Shown here piece after piece: positions 27,508 through 43,476 of a DNA stretch of 64,000 bases. Both the position numbers and the translations under genes were made by a program. Each line of letters starts with the position of its first letter. Position 1 is the first letter of the stretch. This stretch comes from Roseospira goensis. Its GTDB lineage: Bacteria > Pseudomonadota > Alphaproteobacteria > Rhodospirillales > Rhodospirillaceae. The stretch covers positions 1-64,000 of the forward strand of contig NZ_JACIGI010000009.1 in the NCBI RefSeq assembly GCF_014197795.1, read 5' to 3'. Below the pieces are notes generated by a model. That model saw only the letters and a program-made list of their open reading frames with translations, was not told the origin of the DNA and did not search any database.

Positions 27508-27588
27508 GCTTGCCGGGGCCGGCGTGCGCTACTGGGCGGTATGGGCCATCCGCGGCGCGGCGGGCGCCGCCTTGGGAGCACGCCAGCC

Positions 27589-28719
27589 ATGTTCGGACGC
27601 ACGCTCCGGCTATTCCGCGTCTTCGGCTTCGAGGTGCGGGTCAACGTCAGTTGGGCCTTCCTCGCCATCCTGATCGCCATCTCGCTGGCCCGCGGCTTCT
27701 TTCCCGCGACCTATGCCGGCTGGCCCGCCGCGACCTACTGGTGGATGGCGGCGGCGGGCGTGATCGGGGTGTTCGCCTCCATCGTCATCCACGAGCTGTC
27801 GCATTCCCTGGCCGCGCGCGCCATGGGCATGGAGATGAAGGGCATCACCCTGTTCCTGTTCGGCGGCATGGCGGAGATGGACCAGGAGCCGGCCAGCGCC
27901 AAGGGCGAACTGGTCATGGCGCTGGCCGGCCCCGCCATCAGCCTGGTGCTGGCGGCCCTGCTGCTGGGCCTGGCGGCGTTGGGGCGCGGACCGGAGGGTG
28001 CCGGCCCCGCCGTCGCGGTGATCGACTACCTGGGCTGGCTCAACCTGATCCTGGCGGTCTTCAACCTGATCCCGGCGTTCCCCATGGACGGCGGGCGCGC
28101 CCTGCGGGCCACGCTGTGGGCGATCAGCAAGGACCTGCGCTGGGCGACGCGCTGGGCCTCGCGCATGGGCGCGCTGTTCGGGCTGGCCCTGATCGTCCTG
28201 GGGGTGGTCTCGGCGCTACAGGGCGCCTTCGTCGCCGGGCTGTGGTGGATCCTGATCGGCATGTTCATCCGTGCCGCCGCCTCCGGCAGCTACCAGCAGA
28301 TGGAGATCCGCCGGCTCATGACGGGCGTGCGCGCCGAGGACGTCATGCACCCCCTGACCGAGGCGGTTCCCGCCGACATGACCCTGGCCGCGCTGGTCGA
28401 CCGCTACGTCTACGCCACCCAGCAGCCGGCCTTCCCGGTGGTCGAGGACGGCGGCCTGGTGGGTGTGATCGGGCTGGCGGAGATCCGCACCGTGCCGCGC
28501 GCCGACTGGGAGACGACGCCGGTGCGCGCCGTCATGATCCCGGCCGACCGGGCCGAGATCGTCGCGCCCACCACGGACGCCATGGACGCCGTCGCCAAGC
28601 TCCAGACCCACGCAGTCGACGCCCTGATCGTGGCGGATGGGCACCGGCCGGTGGGGGTGCTGGCGCAAAGCGACGTGCTCAAGCTGCTCAGCCTCAAGAT
28701 GGACCTTGAGGCGCGCTGA
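27589..28719 (+). CDS. M50 site-2 protease-family protein with CBS domain pair
   Basis: A 376-residue multi-pass membrane metalloprotease. The zinc motif HELSH (68-72) and the distal NLIPAFPMDGGR motif with Asp 167 define an active S2P/rhomboid-like intramembrane protease of the SpoIVFB subgroup. Residues from about 245 form two CBS motifs, usually adenosine-nucleotide sensors. The ATG at 27589 is chosen for the FGRTLRLFRVFGFEVRVN start; an upstream in-frame ATG at 27541 adds 16 low-complexity residues. The substrate is unknown. The gene converges with marR and overlaps its 3' end by 26 bases. Confidence 0.88.
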   Translation: MFGRTLRLFRVFGFEVRVNVSWAFLAILIAISLARGFFPATYAGWPAATYWWMAAAGVIGVFASIVIHELSHSLAARAMGMEMKGITLFLFGGMAEMDQEPASAKGELVMALAGPAISLVLAALLLGLAALGRGPEGAGPAVAVIDYLGWLNLILAVFNLIPAFPMDGGRALRATLWAISKDLRWATRWASRMGALFGLALIVLGVVSALQGAFVAGLWWILIGMFIRAAASGSYQQMEIRRLMTGVRAEDVMHPLTEAVPADMTLAALVDRYVYATQQPAFPVVEDGGLVGVIGLAEIRTVPRADWETTPVRAVMIPADRAEIVAPTTDAMDAVAKLQTHAVDALIVADGHRPVGVLAQSDVLKLLSLKMDLEAR

Positions 28720-29248
28720 CGCCCCCCGGTCCGCCCCCTGCCGCGCCGTCCTCCCCCGTCCCCGGGACGCCGGCGCGCGGAACCCTGACGTCCTCTAGGC
28801 GGCGCCCCAACGCCTGCAGCACCTCCAGGGCGTGTTCGAGGTGATCCGGGTCGAGGTCCTGCACCAGCGCGCTGGCCCAGCGCGCGTGCAGCGCCATCGC
28901 CTTGTTGAACGCCGCCGATCCGTACTCGGTCAGGACGTACAGCGGCGACCGCTCGTGGCGGGGGTTGGCCTGCTGGCGGAAATAGCCCTGCTCGACCATC
29001 CGGTTCAGCCGCTTCTGGGCGCCCTGGCGGGTCAGGCCCATGGCTTCCGCGATCATCGGTGTCGTCATCGGCTGTCCGGCCAGGGCCACGGCGCCCAGAA
29101 GCTGCCAGTCGGCGCTGGTCATGCGCAGCGGCCTGACGAGATCATCGCCCTTGTCGAGCAGCTTCCGGCGCAGCCGAAAGATCTCAAGCATGATATCGGT
29201 GAGGAGCAGGTCATTGCTCGTATGGGTATCCGGCACTTTTCTATGCAC
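28694..29248 (-). CDS. MarR-family transcriptional regulator
   Basis: A 184-residue winged-helix regulator. The DNA-binding core (about residues 40-110) reads LRMTSADWQLLGAVALAG, MIAEAMGLTRQGAQKRLNRM, and a wing with RHERSPLYVLT. MarR proteins are usually repressors relieved by phenolics, quinones or other small ligands. It lies 104 bases beyond the end of the polyketide gene set on the same strand, so it is a candidate pathway regulator (inference). The annotated start is GTG with a poor ribosome site; GTG at 29236 or ATG at 29191 are alternatives. The last 25 residues are Gly/Pro-rich and overlap the convergent M50 gene. Confidence 0.88.
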   Translation of the reverse strand: MHRKVPDTHTSNDLLLTDIMLEIFRLRRKLLDKGDDLVRPLRMTSADWQLLGAVALAGQPMTTPMIAEAMGLTRQGAQKRLNRMVEQGYFRQQANPRHERSPLYVLTEYGSAAFNKAMALHARWASALVQDLDPDHLEHALEVLQALGRRLEDVRVPRAGVPGTGEDGAAGGGPGGVSAPQGPS

Positions 29249-29352: not shown

Positions 29353-30066
29353 TCAAACGACCAGAGCGTCAATCACGACATAGCTACGCACGGGCTGCGG
29401 ACTCTCCAGGGCGAGGGCGACCGCCCGCTCCCGCCACGGCGCCAGATGGGTGATCCAGCACGGCCCGCCGTCCAGCGGGACCGGCCGGAAGGGGCTCGAC
29501 CCGGCGGGCGGCCCCGGCGCGGTGGACGGGGGGTCGGGCGGCAGCGACAGCGTATCCAGCCCGTGGTTGAGCCCGGTCCCGAGCAGCTTGACCACGGCTT
29601 CCCGGGCGGTCCAGCCGCGCAGGAACGTATCCGGGTCCGGATCCGGCAGCCGCTCCGCCGGCGGCGTGATCCAGGCGTATACAGACCGCCAGCGGGTGGG
29701 ATGGCGCAGGCCCTCGACGTCAAGACCAAGCGGGACCGGCCCCACGGCCAGGGCGAAGACGTGCCGGCTGTGGCTGACGCTGAGATGCACCGGCCGCCCC
29801 CCTGGCCGTCTCGGAACGAAGGGCTTGCCGCGCGGATCCTTGTGGATGCCCAGGCTGGAGTCGCCGGTCACAGCGTGCAGCAGCGTGCGCGCCGTCCGCG
29901 CACTGCGCGGGCGCCAGTCGACGCCCGGGCCGCCGTCGATTACGACCACATGGACGGCGTCGGCGGCCCCGGGCGCGGTGGCCGCGCACGCCAGGGCGGA
30001 CAGCGAGACCGGCTGCCAGGGTGGTGCCGTCCCCGGCGCGGCCGGCCTAGGCCCCCGCCCGGGCAC
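29353..30066 (-). CDS. Sfp-type 4'-phosphopantetheinyl transferase
   Basis: A 237-residue enzyme that loads the phosphopantetheine arm from CoA onto carrier proteins. Family motifs are in order: RGKPF (79-83), HLSVSHS (94-100), the Mg-binding GLDVE (114-118; Asp 116, Glu 118) and WTAREAVVKLLG (152-163; Glu 156, Lys 160). The N-terminal 35 residues are low complexity. Its start lies inside the end of the SDR gene, so it is translated with the polyketide set, where it most likely activates the ACP at 33565-33828. Confidence 0.9.
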   Translation of the reverse strand: MPGRGPRPAAPGTAPPWQPVSLSALACAATAPGAADAVHVVVIDGGPGVDWRPRSARTARTLLHAVTGDSSLGIHKDPRGKPFVPRRPGGRPVHLSVSHSRHVFALAVGPVPLGLDVEGLRHPTRWRSVYAWITPPAERLPDPDPDTFLRGWTAREAVVKLLGTGLNHGLDTLSLPPDPPSTAPGPPAGSSPFRPVPLDGGPCWITHLAPWRERAVALALESPQPVRSYVVIDALVV

Positions 30067-30769
30067 CCTGGGTCGGAGGCCGGCAGCCGATGGCGAGGGT
30101 CTCGACCACCGCTCCCGGCGACAGCCCCATCACGAAGTCCACCGCCCGGCTCAGATCGGCCGGCGCGATCATGTCCTCGGGCGGCATGCCGGAGCCCGCC
30201 CCCATGTCGGTGTCGACCACGTCGGGACACAGCGTGGTCACCCGGATGCCGCGGGGCAGCAACTCGCGCGCCAGCGAGCGCCCGTAGCCGACCAGGGCGT
30301 GCTTGCTGGCGGCATAGCCGCCCACCGGCGCGAACGGCTCCAGGCCGGCGACGGAGGCGATGTTGAAGATGCGGCCGGGCGCGGCCTGCGCCAGCGGCTC
30401 CAGGCAGGCCTGGCACAGGGCATGGATCGCCAGCACGTTGGTGCGCAGGAGGGCCTCCAGGTCGGCGACGGCCAGGGTGCTGGTGCCGAAGTGAAAGATG
30501 CCGGCGGCATTGACCAGCACGTCGAGTCGGCCGCGCCGCGCCACCGCCGCCCGCACCGCGCCGGGGGCGGTGTCGAGGTCGCAGACGTCGACGGGCAGCG
30601 GGTCGGCCGCCCCGCCACCACGCTCGCGCAGATCCGCGGCGGCGGCGGCGAGGCGGGCCTGATCGCGCGCCACCAGGATCAGGTCGAACTGCCGGTCGGC
30701 CAGATGGCGGGCGATTTCCCGCCCGATGCCCCGGCTGGCGCCGGTGACGAGGGCCACGGGTCGCGACAT
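30047..30769 (-). CDS. short-chain dehydrogenase/reductase, likely polyketide tailoring
   Basis: A 240-residue SDR with TGASRGIG cofactor loop (9-16), NAAG (87-90), Ser 139 in NIASVAG, and Tyr 152/Lys 156 in YAASKHA. AAAGGAG precedes the chosen ATG by 7 bases. It differs from the ActIII-like ketoreductase at 36357 and lacks its C-terminal CGGLGNY block, so it is probably a second, later-acting reductase. It lies between the four ABM-fold genes and the phosphopantetheinyl transferase, overlapping the latter by 20 bases. Confidence 0.85.
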   Translation of the reverse strand: MSRPVALVTGASRGIGREIARHLADRQFDLILVARDQARLAAAAADLRERGGGAADPLPVDVCDLDTAPGAVRAAVARRGRLDVLVNAAGIFHFGTSTLAVADLEALLRTNVLAIHALCQACLEPLAQAAPGRIFNIASVAGLEPFAPVGGYAASKHALVGYGRSLARELLPRGIRVTTLCPDVVDTDMGAGSGMPPEDMIAPADLSRAVDFVMGLSPGAVVETLAIGCRPPTQGARAGA

Positions 30770-30802
30770 GGCGCGCTCCTTTCGGGTTTGAGACCAGGTC
30801 AA

Positions 30803-31456
30803 TCAGTCCGCGGCGACGAGGCCGGCGGCGGCCGGGCCTGCCACCCCCGGCGGACCGTCGACGGGGGCCACCACGCGCCGGCACAGCGACGGATGCAGCC
30901 GGTAGGCCAGCGACCGTGCGCGGTGGCGGTCATAGGCGCGGTCGCCCAGGGCGGCCTTGAAGTCGGCGGCGCTGCGCCACTGCGAGACGTTGAGCAGACC
31001 GTAGCGGGCGTGCGGCGAGCGGGCCCGGAACAGGCGCGCGTTCACGAACCCGGCGTGGGCCTCCATGTGGTCCTTGGCCCGGTCCCACATCGCCAGCGCT
31101 CCCGCGATCTCGGCGCCGGCGATCTCGAACGGGTTGACGAGCCAGACGGTGCCGGGGGCCGTCGGCGCCGGCGCGCCAAGCTGGGTGCGCAGCCGCAGCA
31201 CCACCCGCTCCACCGGGCGGCCGGCCACGCTGCCGTCGAGGGCGCCGCCGGCGAGCGCGTCCTCCAGGTCCGGATCCGCCGCCCAGGCGCGCAGCCCCAC
31301 ATAGGCGTAGTGCGCGTCCCGGATGTCCTCGCTGATCTCGAACAGCTCGGCGGCGCAGGGACCGAGCCGGCCGCTCAGGGCTTGGGTCTCCGCCACCCAG
31401 GCGTCGCGCACGGCGGGGTCTGGCGCGCCCAGCACGATGTCGGTCAGGTAGATCAT
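30803..31456 (-). CDS. two-repeat ABM-fold protein 4 of the polyketide cluster
   Basis: A 217-residue protein with two ferredoxin-like ABM (antibiotic biosynthesis monooxygenase) repeats. The second repeat is the clearer: VNPFEIAG, HAGFVNARLFRA, YGLLNVSQWRSAADFKAAL. The first begins IYLTDIVLGAPD. Known cofactor-free ABM oxygenases oxidise aromatic polyketides to quinones; the same fold also hosts cyclases and heme-degrading enzymes. ATGA overlap with the preceding gene. It has no signal peptide. Identity as an oxygenase rests on fold and context. Confidence 0.72.
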   Translation of the reverse strand: MIYLTDIVLGAPDPAVRDAWVAETQALSGRLGPCAAELFEISEDIRDAHYAYVGLRAWAADPDLEDALAGGALDGSVAGRPVERVVLRLRTQLGAPAPTAPGTVWLVNPFEIAGAEIAGALAMWDRAKDHMEAHAGFVNARLFRARSPHARYGLLNVSQWRSAADFKAALGDRAYDRHRARSLAYRLHPSLCRRVVAPVDGPPGVAGPAAAGLVAAD

Positions 31457-32106
31457 GCCGCGTCCCCCATCAGCAGCGACGCCGCGTTGCGGCTCCGGTA
31501 GGCCGTCCGCGTGGTCAGGAACAGGGAGAAATCCTCCTTGAAGGGCGCGACGATCTCGTTGAACCGGTCCGTGTGCACGGCGTCGAAGAACGGGCGCGGC
31601 GAGTCCCACTCGGCGATGTTGACGAACGCGATGGCGTCGTCGGTGTTCCTGTTGCGGAACAGGCTGGCGTTGACGAAACCGGGCTGCGTGCCCATGAAAT
31701 CGGCGGCCTCGTGCCACATGGCGGCGTAGGCGTCGGCCTGGCCGGGTTGGAGGTAGATGACGTCGAGCAACACCAGGTGCGGCGATGCGGTCTGGTAGAC
31801 GTAGGGCCGGCCGTCCACCAGTTCGGTCTTCAGGCTGGTGAAGCGGGTCCCGGACCCGCCGAGCACCGTCGTCACCGCCGGGGTGGCCTTGGCCGCGGCG
31901 CGGGCGGCGTCCCAATCGGCCTCGCTGTCCCACTGGCAGATGCTGGCGAGGGCGTAGTCCGCGCGGGCCTGCACGGTCTGGAAGGTCTCGACGAGCTGGC
32001 CGTCGCGGAAACCGGGCCGCTGCGACAGGAAGCCGCTGACGGCGCACCAGGTCTCCTTGGCCCGCGTGCGGTCCTCGGTCTCCAGGAAATCAATGACCAT
32101 CATCAT
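31453..32106 (-). CDS. two-repeat ABM-fold protein 3 of the polyketide cluster
   Basis: A 217-residue protein with two ABM repeats: the first with VIDFLETEDRTRAKETW and RPGFRDGQLVETF, the second with LLDVIYLQPGQADAYAAMW, QPGFVNASLFRN and AFVNIAEWDSPRPFFDAV. Both repeats show the strand-helix pattern of quinone-forming ABM oxygenases such as ActVA-Orf6, which is a single-repeat homodimer; a two-repeat protein would place both halves in one chain. The start is the first of three consecutive ATG codons, overlapping the preceding stop as ATGA. Confidence 0.75.
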   Translation of the reverse strand: MMMVIDFLETEDRTRAKETWCAVSGFLSQRPGFRDGQLVETFQTVQARADYALASICQWDSEADWDAARAAAKATPAVTTVLGGSGTRFTSLKTELVDGRPYVYQTASPHLVLLDVIYLQPGQADAYAAMWHEAADFMGTQPGFVNASLFRNRNTDDAIAFVNIAEWDSPRPFFDAVHTDRFNEIVAPFKEDFSLFLTTRTAYRSRNAASLLMGDAA

Positions 32107-32798
32107 GACGACACCCCTTCGGTGGCGAGGGAGAGGGAGAGGGACGGCGCGGGCGCGGGTGCGTCGGCGCCCCCGGGGATGGCCGGGGCGGCCGGGTCGG
32201 GAACGTCGTCCGCGACGCGCGAGAAGCAGATCTGGAAGGTGCCCTCGTAGGGGGCGACCAGGGCCTTGTAGTCCTGGCCGGCGAACTGGCGCAGGAAGTC
32301 GGCCTCGGTGCGCCAGCGCGCCCGGCTGACGAAGTAGTAGGCGTCGGCGTCCGGGTGGAAGCTCTGGAACAGCTCGGCGTCCAGGAAGCCCTCGCGCGTC
32401 TGCATCAGCGTCTTGGTGGCGGCCCACATGCGGGCGTTCTCGGCCGCCGCGCCGCGGTCGATGCGGTAGGGGTTGGTGACCACGATCTGCTCGGCCTCGA
32501 CCGGCTGCGCACACGGCGGACTGGCGTCCACGCGGCCGTAAAGATTGACTCCGGGCGGCGTCTCGGGGCCGAAGGGGCGCCGGTGCAGGGCGTCCTCGGC
32601 GCCGTGATAGGCGGCCAGGCTGTCCCACCGGCTGAGGCCGACCAGGGCGTAGCCCGTCCGGTTGAGACGGCGGTAGACCCGCAGCAGGCGGGCGCCGCGG
32701 AAGCCGGGCATGCCGGCCGCCGCCCGCAGGGCGCGCCCCCACAGGCGCGCCGCCGGCCCCGCGTCGGGTGTCTCCAGGATGTCGATACGGGCGATCAT
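32103..32798 (-). CDS. two-repeat ABM-fold protein 2 of the polyketide cluster
   Basis: A 231-residue protein with two ABM repeats: IARIDILETPDAG with MPGFRGARLLRVY, then IVVTNPYRIDRG with REGFLDAELFQSF and YYFVSRARWRTEADF. A low-complexity Ala/Pro/Ser tail of about 30 residues follows. The ATG at 32798 shares a base with the preceding stop (TGATG); GTG at 32801 would add one residue. Function inferred as oxidative tailoring from fold and position. Confidence 0.72.
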   Translation of the reverse strand: MIARIDILETPDAGPAARLWGRALRAAAGMPGFRGARLLRVYRRLNRTGYALVGLSRWDSLAAYHGAEDALHRRPFGPETPPGVNLYGRVDASPPCAQPVEAEQIVVTNPYRIDRGAAAENARMWAATKTLMQTREGFLDAELFQSFHPDADAYYFVSRARWRTEADFLRQFAGQDYKALVAPYEGTFQICFSRVADDVPDPAAPAIPGGADAPAPAPSLSLSLATEGVSS

Positions 32799-33412
32799 CA
32801 CGCAGCCTCCCGATCCTCGACGGCGGGGACACGGGCGACCATGATGCGGCTGCGGGCCTCGAACCCGCCCACCAGGATGCGTTTGAACGCCTCGCTGGAG
32901 AACGCCCGCACGAACGGCCGCAGGCCGGTCCAGGCGGCGACGTTGACAAAGGTCGCCCCCGCCTCCTCCTCGGCGGACTCCGCCCGGTACAGGCGGGTGA
33001 GGCAGAACCCGGGTTGCTCGGCCATGAAGGCGCTGGCGGTGGTGAACTGTGCCAGGAAGGCGTCGGCATCCGGGGCCGCCAGTTCGCTCAGGATCAGCAT
33101 GACCACGCCGGCGGCGGGGGCCTGGGGCGCGGTCCAGGTCCGCCCCTGGGTGCGCATCGCGCGCCGGGTCCGCAGCACCAGGGTGGGGCGGACGCCCTTG
33201 GGGCCGGGCAGCGGGGCGCTGCCGTCGATGCCGGCATCGAGGGTGACGTAGCCGAACCGGCCGCCGCCGTAGCCGCGACGATCGAAGGCGTCGGCGTCGG
33301 CGGGCGACAGTGGCAGCGCGAGGCGTCCGCCGCGCCCGCTGATGCGGCGCAGGATGGGCCAGCCCGGCAGGTCGTCGGGGGCGCGGTCGTAGAACATGAA
33401 GGTGTGCAGCAT
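32798..33412 (-). CDS. ABM-fold protein 1 of the polyketide cluster
   Basis: A 204-residue protein. The C-terminal half is a recognisable ABM repeat (VVMLILSELAAPDADAFL, QPGFCLTRLYRA, TFVNVAAWTGLRPFVRAF). The N-terminal half (MLHTFMFYDRAPDDL...) is diverged and its fold is uncertain, though position suggests a decayed first repeat. GGAGG lies 5 bases before the ATG. It follows the ACP gene by a 152-base gap, the only sizeable gap in the set, so a secondary promoter is possible here. Confidence 0.7.
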   Translation of the reverse strand: MLHTFMFYDRAPDDLPGWPILRRISGRGGRLALPLSPADADAFDRRGYGGGRFGYVTLDAGIDGSAPLPGPKGVRPTLVLRTRRAMRTQGRTWTAPQAPAAGVVMLILSELAAPDADAFLAQFTTASAFMAEQPGFCLTRLYRAESAEEEAGATFVNVAAWTGLRPFVRAFSSEAFKRILVGGFEARSRIMVARVPAVEDREAA

Positions 33413-33564
33413 GAGGACCTCCCTGGTGGTCGCCGCGCGCGCGGGCGCGGCGGGGACCGGACCCGCGTCTCCGGGTCGAGCGCGGGCGGACTGTCCGGAC
33501 CCGGCGCCGCTTCTGCGTCGGCGATCCGGGACCGTCCGTGGGCCGGCGAAGCGGCGCGTGGGGC

Positions 33565-33828
33565 TCAGGCGGGCTCCGCCACCCGCAGCCGGGCGAGGGT
33601 CGCCGCGACCAGATCCGCCGGGGTCTTCAGCCCGGCGTAGTCGACGCCCTTGAGGCTGACCTGCAAGGCGGTCTCGATGTCGACGATGATCCCGATCAGC
33701 TCGGTCGAATCGATGCCCAGGTCGTCCTCGAACGCGGTGTCGGGCTGGATGGTGGCGGGGTCCACGCTGATGGACTCGGCGATGGCCTCAATGACGACGG
33801 CATGAACACGGTCGGTGGTGCTGGTCAT
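33565..33828 (-). CDS. acyl carrier protein of the type II polyketide synthase
   Basis: An 87-residue ACP. The phosphopantetheine site is Ser 41 in DLGIDSTEL, with the acidic helix II recognised by partner enzymes. The sequence departs from the FabG/FabF-linked fatty-acid ACP type (DSLDTVELVM), as expected for a dedicated polyketide carrier. It follows the chain-length-factor gene by 13 bases and has its own GGGAGA ribosome site. Confidence 0.9.
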   Translation of the reverse strand: MTSTTDRVHAVVIEAIAESISVDPATIQPDTAFEDDLGIDSTELIGIIVDIETALQVSLKGVDYAGLKTPADLVAATLARLRVAEPA

Positions 33829-33841
33829 CTCAGGTCTCCCT

Positions 33842-35002
33842 TCAGGTCTCTTTGGTGAGCACGAGGCTGCCCGCGCCGCCGCCCATGGCGCAGGCGTTGA
33901 TCAGGACCCGCTCGATCGTGGCGGGGGTTGCGTCGGGGGCGGCGAACGGGGGGGCGGAATCGTCGGGCGCGGTCCCGGGCAGCGACCGCTGGCGGTGCAG
34001 CATCAGGCTGGCGAAGGCCACGTCGAGCGCCCCTTCGGCCCCGAAGGCGTGGCCGTAGCGGTCCTTGGGGCGCAGCGTCGGCACGCCGGGGCAGACCGCC
34101 GCCAGCGCCGCCTGCTCGCAGGCGTCGACCCGCGCCAGCCCGCTGGCGTCGGGCAGCACGATGTCCGCCTTCATGTTGCCGAGCACCCGGCGCATGGTGC
34201 CTTGCAGGGTGTCGGGGTCGGTGCCGTACTGGTCCGGCCCGCAGGGCGCGTTGCGCATGGCGAACGCCTGCACCCGCGCGTAGACCCTGGCGCCGCGCGC
34301 CCGGGCGTGGGCGGCATCCTCCAGGATTAGGAACACCGCGCCCTCCGACACCGCGAACCCGCTGTCGTGCGGGGCCGGCTCGCCGTTGGCGGCGGCGACG
34401 TGCTCCAGCGCGGCGCGCACGAAGTCGGTGTTGGTGCTCTCGGCGCCACCGGCGATGGCGACGTCGAGTTGGCCCTGGCGGATCTGGCGCGCGGCCGCGG
34501 CCACGCTAACCAGGCTGCTCATGCGGTCGGCCATGTAGGTCTTGCTGAACCCCTTGAGGCCGTGGACGATCGTGATCTGCCCCTGCGGTGCGGCCGGGAA
34601 CCAGCTCGTGGCCTGGAACGGGCTGACGCTGCGCGGCCCCTGGGTGTGCAGGTGGCGCAGTTCGCGCTCGGTGAAGCGCCAGCCGCCGAAGCAGTTGCCG
34701 ACGAAGGCGCCGCAGCGGGTGCGGTCGATGGCGGCCAGGTCCAGGCCGGCGTCCGCGATGGCCGACTGCGTGGCCACCAGGGCGTAGACGGTGAACACGT
34801 CCAGCTTGCGGGCCAGCCGCGGCGGCAGGGCGTTGTCCAGAACGGTCTCGTCGATGCGGCTGCCGTGCAGGCGCGGCGACAGGCGTTCGACGGTCGGGGC
34901 GCGGCCATGGCCCGGGGCGGTGCCGTGAGCCCACAGGTCCTCGACGGTCCGGGTCTTCGGCAGCACAACGCCGATGCCGGTGATGACGACGTCACGGGTC
35001 AT
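33842..35002 (-). CDS. chain-length-factor-like ketosynthase (KS-beta)
   Basis: A 386-residue ketosynthase homologue with the thiolase fold. Aligned to the neighbouring KS, the active-site Cys is replaced by Arg 160 in TYMADRMSSLVSVA, and the first catalytic His motif (NAHG) reads DASG, while the second (YGHAFGAEGA) is kept. Loss of the Cys next to an intact KS is the hallmark of a chain length factor, which pairs with KS-alpha and sets polyketide length. Its Arg substitution is unusual since classical factors carry Gln. ATGA overlap with KS-alpha means equimolar translation. Confidence 0.85.
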   Translation of the reverse strand: MTRDVVITGIGVVLPKTRTVEDLWAHGTAPGHGRAPTVERLSPRLHGSRIDETVLDNALPPRLARKLDVFTVYALVATQSAIADAGLDLAAIDRTRCGAFVGNCFGGWRFTERELRHLHTQGPRSVSPFQATSWFPAAPQGQITIVHGLKGFSKTYMADRMSSLVSVAAAARQIRQGQLDVAIAGGAESTNTDFVRAALEHVAAANGEPAPHDSGFAVSEGAVFLILEDAAHARARGARVYARVQAFAMRNAPCGPDQYGTDPDTLQGTMRRVLGNMKADIVLPDASGLARVDACEQAALAAVCPGVPTLRPKDRYGHAFGAEGALDVAFASLMLHRQRSLPGTAPDDSAPPFAAPDATPATIERVLINACAMGGGAGSLVLTKET

Positions 35003-36309
35003 GCGACGCGAGCCTCCTCGGAATGGGGATGGGAACCGGACGCGGCCGGGTCGTAGCGGGCGACGATCAGGGCGCTGTGGATGCCGGAGAACCCGCTGGC
35101 GTCCTTCAGGGCGACGTCGATGCGGGCCTGGCGCGGCCCGTCCGGCACATAGTCCAGGTCGCAGCGCGGATCGGGGTCGACCAGGTTGCTGGTGGGCGGC
35201 GTTTCCTGGTGCACGATGGATTGCACCAGCGCGACCACCTCGACCGTGTTGGCCGCCGCCAGGGCGTGCCCGACGATGGACTTCAGCGAGCAGATCGGGA
35301 TCTCGTGCGCCCGCGGACCCAGGGTGCGCTTGACCGCGTTGGTCTCGTTGACATCGTTCTGCGGCGTCGAGCTGCCGTGCGCGTTGACATGGTCGATGCG
35401 CTCGGGGGCGATCCCGGCGTCCGTCAGCGCCAGCCGCATGGCCCGGTGCAGGTCCAGGCCCTCGGGCAGCAGGTCGGTCATGTGATAGGCGTTGCAGGTG
35501 GAGCCGAAGCCGGTCAGTTCCACCAGGATGGGGGCACCGCGCCGGCGGGCGTGCTCCAGGTCCTCCAGCACCAGGATGCCGCAGCCCTCGGCCAGCACGA
35601 ACCCGGACCGGGAGGCGTCGTAGGGCCGCGAGGCGGTCTCCGGCGTGTCGTTGCGGTCGCTGGTGATGGCGCCGATGATGTCGAAGGCGCCCATGGCGAT
35701 GGGGGTCAGTGGGGCCTCGGCGGCGCCGGCGATGACCACGTCGGCCTCGCCGGCGCGGATCATCTCCATGGCCTCGCCGAGCGCGTCCAGGCCGGCGGTG
35801 CAGCCTGTCGCCAGGGTGCTGACCGGGCCGCGCGCGCCGTAGGTCCGGGCAATCTCCGACGAGGCGACGTGGAAGCAGGTCCCGGGCAGCAGCGCCGGGT
35901 CCGAGCGGGTGGCGTCGAGCGGCGCCGTGGCCCCGTCGGTCAGGCGCAGGAATGCCTCTTCCATGTACTTGGTGCCGGCGATGGCGGTGGCCACGCTGAC
36001 ACCGAGACGGTCCGGGTCGCAGCCCCCGTCGGCCAGGCCGGCACGGCCCATGGCCTCGGCGGCGGCGGCCAGGGCGAACTGGGCGAAGCGGTCCAGGCCG
36101 CGCGCCTCGGCGTCCTCCAGGCCATGGTCCTCGGGGCGGAAGTCGCGGACCACGCCGGCGACCTGCGACTGGAAGCCGGCGACGTCGAAGGTGTCGATCC
36201 GGAACACGCCGCTCCGGCCCAGGCGGGTGTTCTCCCAGAAGGTGTCCACATCGGTGCCGGTGGGGGCGATGACCCCCAGGCCGGTCACCACGATTCTCCG
36301 CGTGCTCAT
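34999..36309 (-). CDS. type II polyketide ketosynthase (KS-alpha)
   Basis: A 436-residue condensing enzyme. Catalytic Cys 170 in LATGCTAGLDALGEAM, His 311 in VNAHGSSTPQND and His 348 in IVGHALAAAN are all present. It extends the malonyl-derived chain on the ACP as a heterodimer with the chain length factor. The ATG at 36309 is preceded by GGGAG and gives the canonical MSTRRIVVTGLGVIAP start. FabF of fatty acid synthesis is related, but the partner genes (chain length factor, aromatase/cyclase, ActIII-like reductase) argue for polyketide use. Confidence 0.9.
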   Translation of the reverse strand: MSTRRIVVTGLGVIAPTGTDVDTFWENTRLGRSGVFRIDTFDVAGFQSQVAGVVRDFRPEDHGLEDAEARGLDRFAQFALAAAAEAMGRAGLADGGCDPDRLGVSVATAIAGTKYMEEAFLRLTDGATAPLDATRSDPALLPGTCFHVASSEIARTYGARGPVSTLATGCTAGLDALGEAMEMIRAGEADVVIAGAAEAPLTPIAMGAFDIIGAITSDRNDTPETASRPYDASRSGFVLAEGCGILVLEDLEHARRRGAPILVELTGFGSTCNAYHMTDLLPEGLDLHRAMRLALTDAGIAPERIDHVNAHGSSTPQNDVNETNAVKRTLGPRAHEIPICSLKSIVGHALAAANTVEVVALVQSIVHQETPPTSNLVDPDPRCDLDYVPDGPRQARIDVALKDASGFSGIHSALIVARYDPAASGSHPHSEEARVA

Positions 36310-36356
36310 GATGCTGTGCTCCCGAGTGGGTCGCGGGTGTCCTGGCGACGGGGGGA

Positions 36357-37127
36357 TCAGTAGTTGCCCAGGCCGCCGCAGACGTTCATGGCCTGAGCGG
36401 TGACGCCGCGGGCGTGGTCGGAGGCCAGGTAGGACACCATGGCGGCGACCTCGTCCGGCTCGATGTAGCGGCCGATGGGCACCCGGGCCTCGATGCGGCT
36501 CTTCGCCACCTCCGGGGTCACGTCCCAGATCTTGGCGTAGTTGCGCCTTACCTGCTGGGCCATCTCGGTCTCGACGAAGCCGGGGCAGACGGCGTTGACC
36601 GTGATGTCCGAGCCGTCGCGGGCCAGTTCCAGGCCGAGCGCCTTGGTGAACCCGACCACGCCGTGCTTGGAGGCACTGTAGGGTGCGCCGTGCACGACCC
36701 CCTGTTTGCCACCGGTGCTGGCGATGTTGATGACCGCGCCGCCGCTGCCCATGGCCTCGGACTGCAACACCGCCTTGGTGACGTAGAAGACCGCGTTCAG
36801 GTTGGTCTCGATCACGTCGCGCCACAGGTCGTCGGCGATGGTCTTGGTGACGCCGCCGCCGCTGCGGCCGGCGCAATTGACCAGCACGTCGATGGAGCCG
36901 AGAGCCTCGCGCGCCTGCTGCACCAGGGCGGCGACCGCCTCGGGCTGGGTGACGTCGCAGGTCAGGCCGACGACGGTGACGTCCGGGCGCGACAGCGCCG
37001 CGACGGTCTCCTGGAGCCGGTCCGGGTCGCGCGCCACCAGCACGCAGTTGAAGCCGTCGGCGACGAGGCGGGCGGCGATGGACTTGCCGATGCCGCGGCT
37101 GGCGCCGGTGATGAGGGCGTTACGCAT
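36357..37127 (-). CDS. ActIII-like polyketide C9 ketoreductase
   Basis: A 256-residue SDR closely resembling the actinorhodin ketoreductase ActIII from memory: NIASTGGKQGVVH, PYSASKHGVVGFTKALGLEL, ITVNAVCPGFVETEM, RVPIGRYIEPDEVA and the terminal NVCGGLGNY. Catalytic Ser 137, Tyr 150 and Lys 154 are in place. The PGG motif that steers hydride delivery in ActIII reads SGG here (residues 89-91). It should reduce one ketone, usually C9, of the nascent chain with NADPH. Its start overlaps the aromatase/cyclase gene by 8 bases. Confidence 0.92.
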   Translation of the reverse strand: MRNALITGASRGIGKSIAARLVADGFNCVLVARDPDRLQETVAALSRPDVTVVGLTCDVTQPEAVAALVQQAREALGSIDVLVNCAGRSGGGVTKTIADDLWRDVIETNLNAVFYVTKAVLQSEAMGSGGAVINIASTGGKQGVVHGAPYSASKHGVVGFTKALGLELARDGSDITVNAVCPGFVETEMAQQVRRNYAKIWDVTPEVAKSRIEARVPIGRYIEPDEVAAMVSYLASDHARGVTAQAMNVCGGLGNY

Positions 37128-38046
37128 GATCGGGTCCCCCCAGTTTGGCGGCGATGGCCTGCATGGTGCCCAGGCTGTTGCGGTTGATGGCGGTCTCGAC
37201 GGTGTGCTTGGCCTCCTCCGGGTCCTTGCCGGCCCAGAACGCGGGGCTCAACACCACCTCGTGCCAGGAGACGACCTCGGTGCCGGCCTCGGTCTCGGTC
37301 ACGGTCCAGCGACCGCGGTGCTCGGTGAGCGCGGGCGGCGGGGCGGGCTGGAAGTAGTCGATGCGGTCGGCGGAGACGATGCGCACGCTGCGGATACGCT
37401 CCTCGGTCTCGCCGACCTGCACCACCATCACGAACTCCTGGTAGGTGCCGTCGTCGTACAGCACCTCCATGCCGGTGCAGTGCGGCAGCAGCCAGGGCCA
37501 GCACGCGGCGTCGCGCAACAGGCGAAACACCAGCGCGGCCGGCTGCGTGAGGACCAGGGACTCTGCGAAGGCGTGGCGCCAGCGCTCGCGCTCCAGGCGG
37601 GCGGCGACGGCGGCCAGCTCCTTGCGGCTGTTGGTTTCCACCGACCGCATCATGAAGTCGGCGGCTTCTTCGCGGGTGGTCACCCCCTCCACGATCCCGG
37701 CGACGCTGTCGGCGATCTCGAAGTCGTGGGTCAGGGTGATGGTGCAGCCGGCGTCCGAGGGCTCGAAGCGCCAGGTGCCCTTCATGAACTGCACCAGAGG
37801 CGACGGCTTGCTCTGCGCGAAGCTGATGCGGCGGTTGTCGCGGTCGATGGCGCGTTCGGACTCCCAGCTCAGCACGGCGTCGTTGGCGCGCGCGGTCAGC
37901 GCGATCTTCTGCCGGGTGTCGGTTTCCTCCAGGACCCGGGCGGCCAGGCAGGGCGGGAAAATCTCCGGCCAGCGGCTGACGTCCAGCCCGACCCGGAAGG
38001 CCGGGTCCGCGGGGCAGGCGACGTCGATGGAGTGGTCAGTCTTCAT
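37120..38046 (-). CDS. didomain aromatase/cyclase (SRPBCC/START fold)
   Basis: A 308-residue protein with two START-like helix-grip repeats, about residues 1-150 (VSRWPEIFPPCLAARVLEE; WRFEPSDAGCTITLTHDFE) and 155-300 (AACWPWLLPHCTGMEVLYDD; WTVTETEAGTEVVSWHEVV). Didomain aromatase/cyclases act in pathways whose chain is first reduced at C9, dehydrating and aromatising the first ring, which fits the adjacent ActIII-like reductase. First gene of the polyketide operon; upstream is the 556-bp divergent region shared with an efflux operon. Confidence 0.88.
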   Translation of the reverse strand: MKTDHSIDVACPADPAFRVGLDVSRWPEIFPPCLAARVLEETDTRQKIALTARANDAVLSWESERAIDRDNRRISFAQSKPSPLVQFMKGTWRFEPSDAGCTITLTHDFEIADSVAGIVEGVTTREEAADFMMRSVETNSRKELAAVAARLERERWRHAFAESLVLTQPAALVFRLLRDAACWPWLLPHCTGMEVLYDDGTYQEFVMVVQVGETEERIRSVRIVSADRIDYFQPAPPPALTEHRGRWTVTETEAGTEVVSWHEVVLSPAFWAGKDPEEAKHTVETAINRNSLGTMQAIAAKLGGPDHA

Positions 38047-38602
38047 GGCAATGGGGCCTCTGTGACGGGGGATGCGGTCGATGAAACGGGCGCGGCACCG
38101 GGCGGGGGAGCGGGACGCGCTCTGGCGCGGACGAGCCGGGCGGTCGGGGTGGTGTGGGGGTCATGGTTGCCTCCGAGGGGTCGGCCGCGCGCCAGGGGTC
38201 GGGGCCGCGACGCGGCCACCGGTCTCGGTCGCTGTAATTCTCCAGCAGGAAGTAGGGGCTTTGGGTCGCACGCCGACGGTCGGCAGACGACACCTCCCCG
38301 TGCGGACCGGCCGTTCTGGCGCAGGTCCCCGCCGCGATGTCACGCGGGTCCGTGAGGGATGACCGGTGCTTGGCGACGGGCCTCACACCGGATCCGCGGT
38401 CTTGTTTCCGTGACAACCGGTTGCTATTCTGACAACCAGTTGCCATCCAGGAAACGAGTTACCAGATTGGCGCCGTGCGTTCAACCCGAAAAATAAGCGC
38501 GCATGAGTTGTCGCAAACGCGACACACCGGGACCCTGGCCCGCCGCCGCGCCCTTCCGTCGCCGCCGGCGCCGCCGTGCGCCACGAACCCGAGGAGCGTC
38601 CG
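38047..38602. other. 556-bp divergent region between polyketide and efflux operons
   Basis: Holds the paired palindromic operators at 38402-38442. The 350 bases next to the aromatase/cyclase gene are GC-rich with no recognised promoter or gene; the minus-strand operon may start from within the operator region or nearer, which cannot be decided from sequence. Confidence 0.5.
38402..38442 (+). promoter_or_regulatory. promoter with two palindromic operators, upstream of efflux operon
   Basis: CAACCGGTTG (38414-38423, perfect palindrome) and CAACCAGTTG (38433-38442, one central mismatch) are direct copies spaced 19 bases apart, each preceded by TGA. A candidate plus-strand promoter, TTGTTT (38402-38407), 17 bases, TATTCT (38425-38430), has one operator between -35 and -10 and the other just after -10. 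This is a repressor layout; a MarR or TetR protein is the likely binder, with the MarR at 28694 a candidate. Confidence 0.6.
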
Positions 38603-39736
38603 ATGCGACCGTCCCCCGCCGCCCTGCTGCTTGTCCTCTCGCTCGCGACCGCACCGCCGCTGGCCGGATGCCAGACCGAGGCCGCCTCCCAGGCCGCCCG
38701 CCCGTCCGCCCACACGGCGGCGCCGACGGACCGCGACCGGGCCGCGCGGCCCGTGCTGGTGACGCAGGTGCGCTACGAGGCACCGGTCACCGAACGCCGC
38801 TTCGTCGGCACGGTAAGCCCGCGACTCGAAAGCGATCACGGCTTCCGGGTCGCCGGGCGCGTGGCGCGCCGCCCGGTCGACGTCGGCGACAGGGTCACGG
38901 CCGGGGCGCCGCTGGCCACCCTGGACGACACCGACCTGCGTCTGCGACTCGAGCAGGCCGAGGCCGAGGCGCGCGCCGCCCGCAGCGCCCTGAGCCTGGC
39001 CGAATCGGAACGCCGCCGGGCCGAGTCGCTGCACCGGCGCGGCGTCAACGCCGAGTCGGTCCTGGACGCCCGCCGCGCCGCCGCCGACGAGGCCGCGGGC
39101 CGGCTCGCCCGGGCCGAACGCGCCGTCGCCCTGGCCCGCAATGCCCTGGACTACGCCGTGCTGCGCGCCGACGTCGCCGGCGTGGTCACCGCCGTGCTGG
39201 TCGAACCGGGCCAGGTGGTGGCGGTGGGACAACCCGCCATCCGCGTCGCCGGCACGGCGGAGACCGAGGCCCTGGTCGCCCTGCCCGAACGGTTCGTGGC
39301 CCAGGCCCGGGCCGGCGCGGCGCGGGTGTCGCTGTGGGCCGATCCCGACCGCACCTACCAGGCCCGGTTGCGGGAGCTGGCCCCCGCCGCCGACCCCCTG
39401 ACCCGCACCTATGACGCGCGCTTCAGCATTCTGGACCCCGACCCGAACGTGCGACTCGGCATGACGGTGACCGTGACCGTGCGCGCCAACGACGGCGGCC
39501 CAGTCGCCCGTCTGCCGCTGGCCGCGCTGCGCGACGACGGCGACGGGCCGGCGGTGTTCGTGGTCGACCGCGCCGCCGGCACCCTGAGCCGGCAGCCGGT
39601 CGCGGTGGTGGCCTACGAGGGCGAGGCCGCCGTGCTGGGCGGCGGCGTGGCGACGGGCGACTGGGTGGTCGCCCTCGGCACCCAGAAGCTCGACGCCGCA
39701 CAGACCGTGCGCGTCGTCGACACCCTCTCGTTCTAG
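38603..39736 (+). CDS. RND efflux periplasmic adaptor lipoprotein
   Basis: A 377-residue membrane fusion protein. The N-terminus is a lipoprotein signal ending LAGC (Cys 23). Barrel-sandwich hybrid, a long alpha-hairpin (about 105-175, rich in Ala/Glu/Arg) and beta-barrel regions follow; ADVAGVVTAVLVEPGQVV is the second lipoyl half. It links the inner-membrane pump to an outer-membrane channel, whose gene is not adjacent. GAGGAG precedes the ATG. First gene of the operon divergent from the polyketide cluster. Confidence 0.9.
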   Translation: MRPSPAALLLVLSLATAPPLAGCQTEAASQAARPSAHTAAPTDRDRAARPVLVTQVRYEAPVTERRFVGTVSPRLESDHGFRVAGRVARRPVDVGDRVTAGAPLATLDDTDLRLRLEQAEAEARAARSALSLAESERRRAESLHRRGVNAESVLDARRAAADEAAGRLARAERAVALARNALDYAVLRADVAGVVTAVLVEPGQVVAVGQPAIRVAGTAETEALVALPERFVAQARAGAARVSLWADPDRTYQARLRELAPAADPLTRTYDARFSILDPDPNVRLGMTVTVTVRANDGGPVARLPLAALRDDGDGPAVFVVDRAAGTLSRQPVAVVAYEGEAAVLGGGVATGDWVVALGTQKLDAAQTVRVVDTLSF

Positions 39737-39746
39737 GGGACGCGCG

Positions 39747-42700
39747 ATGGACGGGGGCAGCCCTCACCAGCAGGCCACGGGACCCGGCAACCTCTCGGCG
39801 TGGGCGGTGCGCCACCCGGCGCTGATCCTGTTCCTGGTCCTGGTGATCGCGATCGGCGGGACCATCGCCTTCCTGGGCCTGGGCCGGGCCGAGGACCCGG
39901 GCTTCACCATCAAGGTCGCCAACGTCACCGCCCGCTGGCCCGGCGCCACCGCCGCCGAGATGCAGGCCCAGGTGGCGGACCGGATGGAAACCCGCCTGCA
40001 ACAACTCGCCTGGTTCGAGTCGGTGACCACCTACAGTCAGCCCGGGTTCACCGCCCTGCAGGTCGAGTTCCGCGACAGCATGCCGCCGCGCGCCTTGCCG
40101 GAGCTGTTCCACCAGCTCCGCAAGACGCTGCGCGACCTCAAGCCCGACCTGCCGGACGGGGTGATCGGCCCCGCGGTCAACGACGAGTTCGGCGACGTCG
40201 ATTCGATCCTGTACGCCATCACCGGCGCGGGCACCGACTACGCCGCCCTGAAGGACGTCGCCAAGAGCCTGCGCCAGGCCCTCCTCGGGCTGCCCGACGT
40301 GCGCAAGGTCACCCTGTACGGCAATCAGGACGAGCGCATCTTTGTCGAGTTCAGCCACGCCCGGCTCGCCACGCTGGGCCTGTCGGCCGCCGACCTGTTC
40401 GGGTCGCTGGCGGATCAGAACGCCGTCGCCCCCGCCGGTATCGTCGAGACCACGGCCCAGCGCGTGCCGCTGCGCGTCTCCGGCGCCTTCGACGGCGCCC
40501 GCGCCGTGGCCGAGACGCCGGTCGCCGCCGGCGGCCGCGTCTTCCGCATCGGCGACGTCGCCACCGTCACGCGCGGCTTCGAGGACCCGCCGCGCCACCT
40601 GGTGCGGGTCGGCGGGGCGCCGGCCCTGCTGCTCGGCGTCGTGATGGAGTCGGGCGGCAACATCCTAGCCCTGGGGGAGGCGGCGGACGCCCTGATGGCC
40701 GAGATGGCGGCCGCGATTCCCGTCGGCATCGACGTGACCAAGATCGCCGACCAGCCCCGGGTGGTCGACCACGCGCTGGGCGAGTTCTTCAAGGTCTTCG
40801 CGGAGGCGCTGGCGATCGTGCTGGCGGTCAGTTTCCTGACCCTGGGGGTGCGCACCGGCGTCGTGGTGGCGCTGTCGGTGCCGGTGGTGCTGGCGCTCAC
40901 CTTCATCGGCATGGCGATGCTGGGTCTGGACCTGCACCGCATCACCCTGGGGGCGCTCATCATCGCCCTCGGCCTGCTGGTCGACGACGCCATCATCGCG
41001 GTCGAGATGATGGTGGTGAAGATGGAGGAGGGCTGGAGCCGCGTCGCCGCCGCCGGCTACGCCTGGACCTCGACCGCGTTTCCCATGCTGACCGGGACCC
41101 TGGTCACCGCCATCGGCTTCCTGCCGATCGGGTTCGCGAACTCGGCGGTGGGCGAGTACGCCGGCGGCATCTTCTGGGTGGTCGGCCTCGCCCTGATGGC
41201 GAGCTGGCTGGTGGCCGTCGTGGTCACCCCGTACCTGGGGGTCAGGCTGCTGCCCAGCTTCGCCGGCCGCCAGCAGCGGCACGGCGGCGATCCCTACGCC
41301 ACCCGGCCCTATCGCCTGCTGGCCGCCGTGGTGGCCTGGTGTGTGCGCCGCCGCCTGGTGGTGGTGATCGTCACGGTCGCCCTGTTCGCCGCGGCGCTGG
41401 TCGGCTTCGGGCAGGTCTCGCGCCAGTTCTTCCCGCTGTCGGAACGCCCGGAGCTGTTCGTGGACCTGCGCCTCCCGGAGGGCACGGCCATCGACGTCAC
41501 CGCCGCCGTCGCGCGCGAGGCCGAGTCGCTGCTGGCCGGCGACCCGGACATCGCCACCGCCACCACCACGATCGGCGCCGGGCCGCCCCGCTTCTGGCTC
41601 GGGCTCAACCCGGAGCTGCCGAACCCCGCCTTTGCGCAGATCATTATCGTGGCCAAGGGCGTGGCCGCGCGCGAACGCGTCAAGGCCCGCCTGGAGGCGG
41701 CCCTGGCGGACGGCGCCCTGACCCGCGCCCGGGTGCGGGTGCACCGCTTCAAGTACGGGCCGCCGGTGGGCTTCCCGGTCGAGTTCCGCGTCATGGGGCC
41801 GGATGCCATGGCGGCCCGCCGCATCGCCCGTGCGGTGCAGGACGTGATGCGCGCCGACCCACGGCTGGTGGACCCGCACCTGGACTGGAGCGAACGCCTG
41901 CCCGTGGTGGTGCTGGACGTGGACCAGGCGCGCGCCCGCGCGCTCGGGCTGAACACCGCCGACGTCGCCCGCACCCTCAACACCCTGGTCTCGGGGGTCG
42001 CGGTCACCACGGTGCGCGACGGCACCGAGCCGGTGGCGGTGGTCGCACGCGCGGTGCCGAACGAACGCGTCGACCTGGCGCACCTGGGCGACCTGACCAT
42101 CCCGACCCGGGCAGGGCCGGTGCCCCTGACCCAGGTGGCCCGCCTGGACTACGAGGCCGAAGAGGCGATCCTGCGCCGGCGCAACCAGGACATCACCATC
42201 ACCGTCCGCGCTGACGTGGTCGACGGCGTCCAGCCCCCCGACGTGACGATGGACCTGTGGCCGCGTCTGGCGGGCATCCGCGCCGCCCTGCCGCCCGGCT
42301 TCCACATCGAGAAAGGCGGCGCGATCGAGGAATCGGCCAAGGGCAACGCCTCCATCGTGGCCCTGTTCCCGGCGATGATCCTCGGCATGCTCACCGTTCT
42401 GATGGTCCAGGTGCAGAGCTTTGCACGCCTGCTGCTGGTGGTGCTGACGGCCCCGCTGGGGATCATAGGGGCGGTGCTGGCGCTGCTGCTGGCGGACCGG
42501 CCGTTCGGATTCGTGGCCCTGCTGGGGCTGATCGCGCTGGCCGGCATGATCATGCGCAACGCCGTCATCCTGGTGGACTGGATCGAGGCCGACGTGCGCC
42601 AGACCGGCCAACCGCTGGCCCACGCCATCGTGCACGCGACGGTGCGGCGCGCCCGACCGGTGGTCCTGACCGCGCTGGCCGCCATCCTGGCCATGATCCC

Positions 42701-42911
42701 GCTCAGCACCTCCGCGTTCTGGGGACCGATGGCGACCACCATCATGGGCGGGCTGTTTGGCGCGACCTTCCTGACGCTTCTGTTCGTGCCCGCCCTGTAT
42801 GCGCTGGTCTTCAGCCGCCGCATCCGGCGCGAGCGGACCGCGACCAGCCGGGCCCGGCGCGGCGGCGCGCACGGGGTCGCGGCGCCGCAGCCGGCCGGAG
42901 GGCCGCCATGA
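39747..42911 (+). CDS. RND-type multidrug efflux pump permease (HAE1 family)
   Basis: A 1054-residue, 12-helix proton-driven exporter. The proton-relay acidic pair Asp 413/Asp 414 lies in GLLVDDAIIAVEM of helix 4, and the two large periplasmic porter loops follow helices 1 and 7 in the usual order. The sequence fits the AcrB-related group with short cytosolic C-terminus. It follows its adaptor by 10 bases. Because it is divergent from the polyketide genes it may export that product (inference). Confidence 0.95.
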   Translation: MDGGSPHQQATGPGNLSAWAVRHPALILFLVLVIAIGGTIAFLGLGRAEDPGFTIKVANVTARWPGATAAEMQAQVADRMETRLQQLAWFESVTTYSQPGFTALQVEFRDSMPPRALPELFHQLRKTLRDLKPDLPDGVIGPAVNDEFGDVDSILYAITGAGTDYAALKDVAKSLRQALLGLPDVRKVTLYGNQDERIFVEFSHARLATLGLSAADLFGSLADQNAVAPAGIVETTAQRVPLRVSGAFDGARAVAETPVAAGGRVFRIGDVATVTRGFEDPPRHLVRVGGAPALLLGVVMESGGNILALGEAADALMAEMAAAIPVGIDVTKIADQPRVVDHALGEFFKVFAEALAIVLAVSFLTLGVRTGVVVALSVPVVLALTFIGMAMLGLDLHRITLGALIIALGLLVDDAIIAVEMMVVKMEEGWSRVAAAGYAWTSTAFPMLTGTLVTAIGFLPIGFANSAVGEYAGGIFWVVGLALMASWLVAVVVTPYLGVRLLPSFAGRQQRHGGDPYATRPYRLLAAVVAWCVRRRLVVVIVTVALFAAALVGFGQVSRQFFPLSERPELFVDLRLPEGTAIDVTAAVAREAESLLAGDPDIATATTTIGAGPPRFWLGLNPELPNPAFAQIIIVAKGVAARERVKARLEAALADGALTRARVRVHRFKYGPPVGFPVEFRVMGPDAMAARRIARAVQDVMRADPRLVDPHLDWSERLPVVVLDVDQARARALGLNTADVARTLNTLVSGVAVTTVRDGTEPVAVVARAVPNERVDLAHLGDLTIPTRAGPVPLTQVARLDYEAEEAILRRRNQDITITVRADVVDGVQPPDVTMDLWPRLAGIRAALPPGFHIEKGGAIEESAKGNASIVALFPAMILGMLTVLMVQVQSFARLLLVVLTAPLGIIGAVLALLLADRPFGFVALLGLIALAGMIMRNAVILVDWIEADVRQTGQPLAHAIVHATVRRARPVVLTALAAILAMIPLSTSAFWGPMATTIMGGLFGATFLTLLFVPALYALVFSRRIRRERTATSRARRGGAHGVAAPQPAGGPP

Positions 42912-42931: not shown

Positions 42932-42966
42932 ATAGCGTGCTATGTTTATGGTATATAGCCGGCTAT
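42932..42966. promoter_or_regulatory. twin perfect palindromes ATAGC-NN-GCTAT
   Basis: ATAGCGTGCTAT (42932-42943) and ATAGCCGGCTAT (42955-42966) share 5-base arms and are 23 bases centre to centre, about two helix turns. The AT-rich TATGGTATATA between them could be a -10 region. Located between the RND permease and the small membrane-protein gene that starts at 42995. Looks like a tandem repressor site; the binding protein is not identifiable here. Confidence 0.6.
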
Positions 42967-42994
42967 GTTCAACCCGTTGAGAGGAGAGCCGTCC

Positions 42995-43441: not shown

Positions 43442-43476
43442 CGGCGGCGGCCCCCGCGCCAACCACGGAGAGCCCC

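Follow-up and report, generated by a model that had tools for sequence, protein, structure and literature searches.

The window analysed here is a stretch of 64,000 nucleotides of the Roseospira goensis genome (contig NZ_JACIGI010000009.1, positions 1 to 64,000), in which eleven genes on the minus strand (29353-38046) look like a production line for an aromatic molecule resembling a pigment or antibiotic, built by a type II polyketide synthase (PKS). In order of transcription, they encode a didomain aromatase/cyclase (ARO/CYC; 308 aa, 37120..38046), an ActIII-type C9 ketoreductase (KR; 256 aa, 36357..37127), the ketosynthase (KS) KS-alpha (436 aa, 34999..36309), a chain length factor (CLF, or KS-beta; 386 aa, 33842..35002), an acyl carrier protein (ACP; 87 aa, 33565..33828), four proteins of ABM type (ABM1-4), a second short-chain dehydrogenase/reductase (SDR; 240 aa, 30047..30769; PF00106 adh_short) and a phosphopantetheinyl transferase (PPTase) of the Sfp/ACPS superfamily (237 aa, 29353..30066; PF01648 ACPS, 27.8 bits against a cut-off of 25). 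From ARO/CYC to PPTase, the junctions between neighboring genes measure -8, +47, -4, +13, +152, -4, -4, -4, +33 and -20 bases. A preliminary description of this DNA had listed the same genes, and open reading frame coordinates and Pfam matches recover all of them in the order and on the strand it gave; its statement that nearly all are coupled by overlaps was too strong, since six of the ten junctions overlap.

The two ketosynthase-like proteins, both matching the N- and C-terminal ketoacyl-synt families, carry the class assignment. KS-alpha has a Cys170-His311-His348 triad that is invariant in all seven aligned KSs, while the CLF has Arg160 at the Cys position, likewise invariant in all seven aligned CLFs; the CLF of the actinorhodin (act) PKS has Gln there, so that the window protein departs from the Act type at this residue. 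The best match in the PDB is 6smo chain B for the KS and, by phmmer, 6smo chain C for the CLF, which we take to be AntD and AntE of Photorhabdus. In a search with a profile built from two CLFs, some FabFs scored level with chain C, and class assignment was therefore left to a tree of 43 rows (14 KS-alpha, 13 CLFs and 16 FabF-like and aryl-polyene rows). This tree resolved a KS-alpha group (100/98), a CLF group (100/99) and a FabF-like/aryl-polyene group (96/96). The window KS falls among type II PKS KS-alpha proteins, apart from FabF, in a clade of eight proteobacterial and myxobacterial KSs that includes AntD (97/91); the KSs of actinomycetes make up a separate clade, and an Apilactobacillus KS lies outside both. 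The window CLF falls in the CLF group, in which AntE, present as a partial row, has an unsettled place. Both aryl-polyene (Ape) KSs of CFT073 belong to neither the KS nor the CLF group and lie on the FabF side, on long branches. The preliminary description had named such a phylogeny as the check on its type II PKS reading, and the outcome agrees with it: the pair sits among type II PKS enzymes, away from FabF and aryl-polyene KSs. The KS/CLF pair of the Apilactobacillus plasmid, considered as a relative, proved distant, on long branches. Outside the window and not part of the cluster, a further KS-like gene (G000:C9:73917-75164; L053 9917-11164) adjoins what appears by eye to be a small ACP-like gene; its grouping with an aryl-polyene KS is loose (96/79, on long branches).

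The enzymes for the early steps are of the corresponding aromatic type. The KR (adh_short) has ActIII (1x7g) as its best PDB match (E 1.1e-86), aligns with it over residues 4-256 and shares its C-terminal CGGLGNY. The ARO/CYC contains two stretches of Pfam Polyketide_cyc and is closest to BexL (4xrw; residues 3-295, E 1.5e-31). This pairing supports the prediction, already made in the preliminary description, of a C9-reducing type II aromatic PKS. The ACP (PF00550 PP-binding, 41.1 bits) carries its Ser in a DSTE motif, as do all seven ACPs compared from the window, the four other eleven-gene loci described below, a gammaproteobacterial metagenome-assembled genome (MAG) and Pyxidicoccus; the motif is DSL or ESL in the three actinomycete ACPs compared and DSA in Apilactobacillus. 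The PPTase motifs GxDxE and WTx[KR]EAxxK are present in all five eleven-gene loci. A Thr following the ACP Ser has been tied to Sfp incompatibility (PMC11744666; this and the other papers cited are drawn on from the parts available to us), and AntF required AntB of its own cluster (PMC6638757); together these would explain a PPTase that travels with the cluster. As the preliminary description had noted, the cluster has no malonyl transferase: an acyltransferase is absent among the eleven genes, and the genome, which is 98.6% complete, has a single PF00698 match; it lies outside the window (C10:10431-11258), about 1.7 kb away from the FabF-like KS of this genome.

One scan of a genome-contig collection with two peptide patterns found five of the related loci described here (all but those of A. 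brasilense), and because it was based on two patterns further members were probably missed. All eleven genes occur in identical order in Roseospira visakhapatnamensis (51-85% identity to the window proteins), on plasmid ABSP7_p3 of Azospirillum brasilense Sp7 (34-76%; a resistance-nodulation-division (RND) pair follows and MarR genes lie upstream) and in an Enterobacterales MAG (about 22-66%; ABM1 placed by position and alignment). Recurrence of this order in three further complete loci is more than chance, and provides the conserved gene set in relatives that the preliminary description had looked to as support. A Rhodospira MAG also has all eleven genes in a consistent order, with ARO/CYC cut by a contig end; a second A. 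brasilense plasmid record holds at least CLF and ARO/CYC; and Pyxidicoccus fallax (ARO/CYC to ACP) and the gammaproteobacterial MAG (end of KR to ACP) hold the core only. Near the P. fallax core, a polyketide-cyclase domain is fused to an AMP-binding ligase (L036 2556-4664). Two ARO/CYC-type genes on the Crinalium epipsammum plasmid pCRI9333.01 (L030; typed mobilizable) sit with a ligase, methyltransferases and FAD oxidoreductases; as no KS or CLF occurs in the stretch read, this plasmid was dropped as a relative.

The distribution of the cassette is patchy. Within the genus, three of seven genomes carry it (CLF match above 660 bits), and the same three are the only carriers among 74 genomes of the family. 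Six of the seven genus genomes pass 1e-60, the non-carriers with 207-220 bits only, and the one of these placed in the tree falls on the FabF side. A CLF search of 199 genomes of the order recognized no cassette beyond the genome itself: 124 match at E <=1e-20, the best non-self match (100.5 bits, 32% identity) was taken as FabF, and the six loci put in the tree, out of 19 fetched, all fall on the FabF side. Two of 385 genomes sampled from the class pass 1e-32, namely the genome itself and one with a FabF-side KS, and four of 398 from the phylum pass 1e-75, namely the genome itself and three with FabF-side KSs (256-257 bits). The Enterobacterales genes have 28-39% G+C, against 61-73% for those of Roseospira and A. 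brasilense; in view of this gap, the cassette seems to have moved from one class to another, its composition adapting since.

At the level of sequence the gene set is complete, conserved and intact, with its catalytic residues in place, and we put the probability that it encodes a functional reducing type II PKS at roughly 0.8. Comparison with the other Roseospira locus gave dN/dS values of 0.205-0.583 for 12 genes (the eleven and a neighboring MarR gene), an estimate that is rough owing to GC saturation at third positions. In the pathway we envisage, the cluster's PPTase would arm the ACP, FabD would supply malonyl units, and KS/CLF would extend a poly-beta-ketone primed with malonyl or acetate. 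An octaketide-like chain length is a guess; the CLF gatekeeper residues (Trp/Thr/Leu by eye, against Phe/Thr/Phe in the act CLF) were too weak a guide and were left unused. The KR would then reduce C9, and the ARO/CYC would close and aromatize the first ring. For the later rings, the Ser-bearing ABM2, perhaps along with others, may guide closure or act as a chaperone, one or more of ABM1, ABM3 and ABM4 would oxidize the anthrone to a quinone, and the SDR would tailor the product. Finally, the MarR regulator may sense the product and derepress both the cluster and an RND pump, which would export it.

The later steps give the cluster its distinctive character. ABM1 (204 aa, 32798..33412) has a C-terminal ABM domain with Asn157-x3-Trp161, although its PF03992 match is just below threshold (20.8 bits against 23.1), its SnoaB match is weak and its structure model is poor. 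ABM2 (232 aa, 32103..32801) and ABM3 (217 aa, 31453..32106) both exceed the PF03992 cut-off; ABM3 has a two-domain ABM fold with Asn163-x3-Trp167, and ABM2 has Ser in place of Asn. The divergent ABM4 (217 aa, 30803..31456) is without a Pfam match in the window and was assigned by alignment with ABM2 and ABM3, and its Enterobacterales orthologue matches the ABM family PF03992 (24.7 bits). One of the four was confidently modeled, with a two-domain fold like that of anthrone oxidases, so that the ferredoxin-like ABM fold of anthrone oxygenases is present. The C-terminal ABM domains align with SnoaB at Asn-x3-Trp, residues that we take to be those of the SnoaB active site; ABM1, ABM3 and ABM4 each keep this motif in all five eleven-gene loci, and ABM2 has its Ser in all five. 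The four are probably paralogues that arose by tandem duplication, and the cluster contains no member of a canonical later-ring cyclase family. We propose from these sequence features that the ABM-type proteins share later cyclization and anthrone oxidation between them, and that the product may later be oxidized to a quinone.

It is tempting to go further, and to suppose that the duplicated set takes the place of all canonical later-ring cyclases, each member being a pseudo-dimer of fused ABM domains, with ABM2 serving as a cyclase that has lost the oxygenase Asn and the others as oxygenases or cyclases. We hold this tentatively, at somewhat less than even odds. If true, one protein family would perform both ring closure after the first ring and quinone formation, an alternative solution within a horizontally spread proteobacterial lineage of type II PKSs. 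An ABM protein may act as an oxygenase, or it may serve fidelity without catalysis, the role put forward for ForS (PMC6689052), and the strongest competing view builds on that precedent: all four would be chaperone-like fidelity factors, and the product a non-quinone reduced aromatic of the mutactin or DMAC kind. The absence of Asn from ABM2 in every eleven-gene locus would suit such a role, as would the lack of any redox enzyme in the set apart from the two SDRs. However, the retention of Asn-x3-Trp in the other three, at the very position where their C-terminal domains match SnoaB, speaks for catalysis, and we consider a wholly non-catalytic set unlikely, if a serious contender.

Turning from the ABM proteins to the cluster as a whole, its occurrence in three of seven genus genomes would fit a silent or decaying locus that is kept but rarely or never expressed. 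Nevertheless, all of its genes are open, with dN/dS below 1 against Roseospira, and the same genes are open in the Enterobacterales MAG at a far lower G+C content, which makes disuse or decay improbable. Much less credible still is a type II PKS-like system with a non-aromatic product of the polyene or cispentacin kind. Such systems exist (PMC10698177), and the AmcF model matches the window KS weakly (169.9 against 325 bits); yet, SDR folds aside, none of the eleven proteins matches a dehydratase or enoyl reductase family, and the KR and ARO/CYC are of aromatic type (a judgment made with a tree that holds no ishigamide or cispentacin KSs). Least tenable of all is that the two KSs belong to the FabF or Ape kind and produce a fatty acid or polyene, for although the best NCBIfam models for the KS are those of FabF (TIGR03150, 433.7 bits, below its curated cut-off of 493.75; the broad PRK07314 subfamily model, 427.8, above its cut-off of 387), the tree sets KS and CLF apart and led us to reject a FabF or aryl-polyene origin, no dehydratase occurs among the eleven proteins, and ARO/CYC and an ActIII-type KR are present.

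The cluster finds its nearest parallel in the ant cluster of Photorhabdus luminescens (AntA-I), which is likewise gram-negative and has a KR, an ARO/CYC, an ACP and its own PPTase, and to which the KS clade and the PDB matches of KS and CLF also point. The eleven window proteins differ in having, by Pfam, no AMP-binding ligase of the AntG kind and no hydrolase of the AntI kind; conversely, the four ABM proteins and the extra SDR have no mention in the ant descriptions, as far as the available portions of these extend. The actinorhodin PKS (ActI-ORF1/2, ActIII, ActVA-Orf6) shares the ActIII-type KR, a C-H-H KS-alpha and an ABM-type partner. Besides the Arg of the CLF, the window cluster departs from it in a DST rather than DSL-type ACP motif, in the lack of a known later-ring cyclase family and in its four ABM-type proteins, which, at 204-232 aa, are in no case of single-domain length. 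Pentangular and fasamycin/formicamycin clusters (PdmH/PdmI, FkmO1/O2, ForS/ForU) also combine a type II PKS with multiple ABM proteins (PMC4383371, PMC6689052); in the portions of these papers available, there are two, accompanied by further cyclases (TcmN-, TcmI- and cupin-type in for), whereas the window has four and only the ARO/CYC.

Non-actinobacterial type II PKSs are already catalogued. A 2023 survey counts 6322 CLFs in total, of which 565 are non-actinobacterial when environmental and patent sequences are set aside (PMC10132072), in agreement with the preliminary description, which held such clusters to be known mainly from actinomycetes. Its non-actinobacterial CLF clade is of the same broad class as the window CLF and includes alphaproteobacteria among its taxa, and its main text, supplementary lists aside, has no occurrence of Azospirillum or Roseospira. 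A term search of the accessible text of a 2025 review (PMC12664062) likewise returned no mention of Azospirillum, ABM or gram-negative, and two further papers concern an actinobacterial-type cluster unrelated to this one (PMC10100984) and unrelated matter (PMC8674757). We found no description of this cluster in the open-license literature searched, which was mostly at abstract level, with subscription papers and supplements outside it. The cluster itself is real and probably functional, and what appears to be new is the variant with four ABM-type proteins and no canonical later-ring cyclase.

To our knowledge, the product is known for few aromatic type II PKSs of gram-negative bacteria. A. brasilense Sp7 is a cultivable and genetically tractable plant-root bacterium, and the presence of the cluster there makes the product and the roles of the ABM proteins directly testable. 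Furthermore, the cluster is compact and complete, with a KS/CLF pair related to that of the Photorhabdus system, which has been made to work in E. coli (PMC6638757). It can be viewed as a natural experiment on how the ABM fold is divided between oxygenase and cyclase or chaperone roles.

Genes for regulation and export lie close by. A MarR-family regulator (28694..29248, minus strand; PF12802) follows the PPTase gene; its counterparts next to the cluster in Roseospira and Rhodospira are 72 and 77% identical, and two near the A. brasilense cluster 51 and 44%. On the other side, an RND adaptor/permease pair (38576-42911) diverges upstream of the PKS genes, comprising an HlyD/RND periplasmic adaptor (38576..39736, plus strand; PF16576) and an RND efflux permease (39747..42911, plus strand; PF00873) that share 48 and 63% identity with their counterparts adjoining the cluster of A. 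brasilense; for the genus, 12 other RND locations are listed, at 34-35% to the window permease. MarR and RND genes accompany all four alphaproteobacterial cluster copies, although the RND pair near the Roseospira and Rhodospira clusters differs from that of the window, and the pump beside alphaproteobacterial clusters is thus a recurrent association, of linkage only. For the Enterobacterales MAG we claim no export gene, the two open reading frames past its PPTase being without a Pfam match. Between the divergent PKS and RND units lies a candidate operator (38411..38443, minus strand) of two copies of GCAACYGGTTGTCA, 19 bp apart, and three related copies precede a MarR gene near the A. brasilense cluster. 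With a matrix from the window copies, the best match in the A. brasilense locus falls before the MarR gene (15.8 against a top score of 13.5 in 20 shuffles), and in the reverse search the window sites rank first (17.2 and 16.7 against 15.1). Sites before the Roseospira ARO/CYC were weak and within the shuffled range, and were discarded.

By gene names assigned in part by eye, the cluster stands between phaC/phaB-like genes and atp genes, without a clear break in composition. In R. visakhapatnamensis atpC and the cluster are on different contigs, and neither there nor in four cluster-less relatives are the flanking genes of the window's cluster found beside atpC (one of these contigs ends shortly past atpC). 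For a Peptidase M50/CBS-domain gene beside the cluster (27541-28719), a search of the six remaining genus genomes at E 1e-60 returned no match. Beyond the RND genes, a small membrane-like protein without a Pfam match (42965..43441, plus strand) forms a pair with a lipoprotein-like gene (42965-43923); in Roseospira and Rhodospira this pair comes after PPTase and MarR, in that order. The small protein is linked to the cluster in all five eleven-gene loci (identity is 51% for the copy close to the A. brasilense cluster and 43% for that close to the Enterobacterales cluster), with no match beside the core-only Pyxidicoccus locus. It was rejected as a cluster-specific gene, being present in all seven genus genomes, so that the tie is one of linkage only; its presence may point to a former site of the cluster, or the gene may just be a common one. 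Among the four cluster-less relatives it stands alone in two and with the lipoprotein-like gene in two, and in one cluster-less relative it adjoins an RND permease gene with a listed inner stop (G130:C61:4566-7625).

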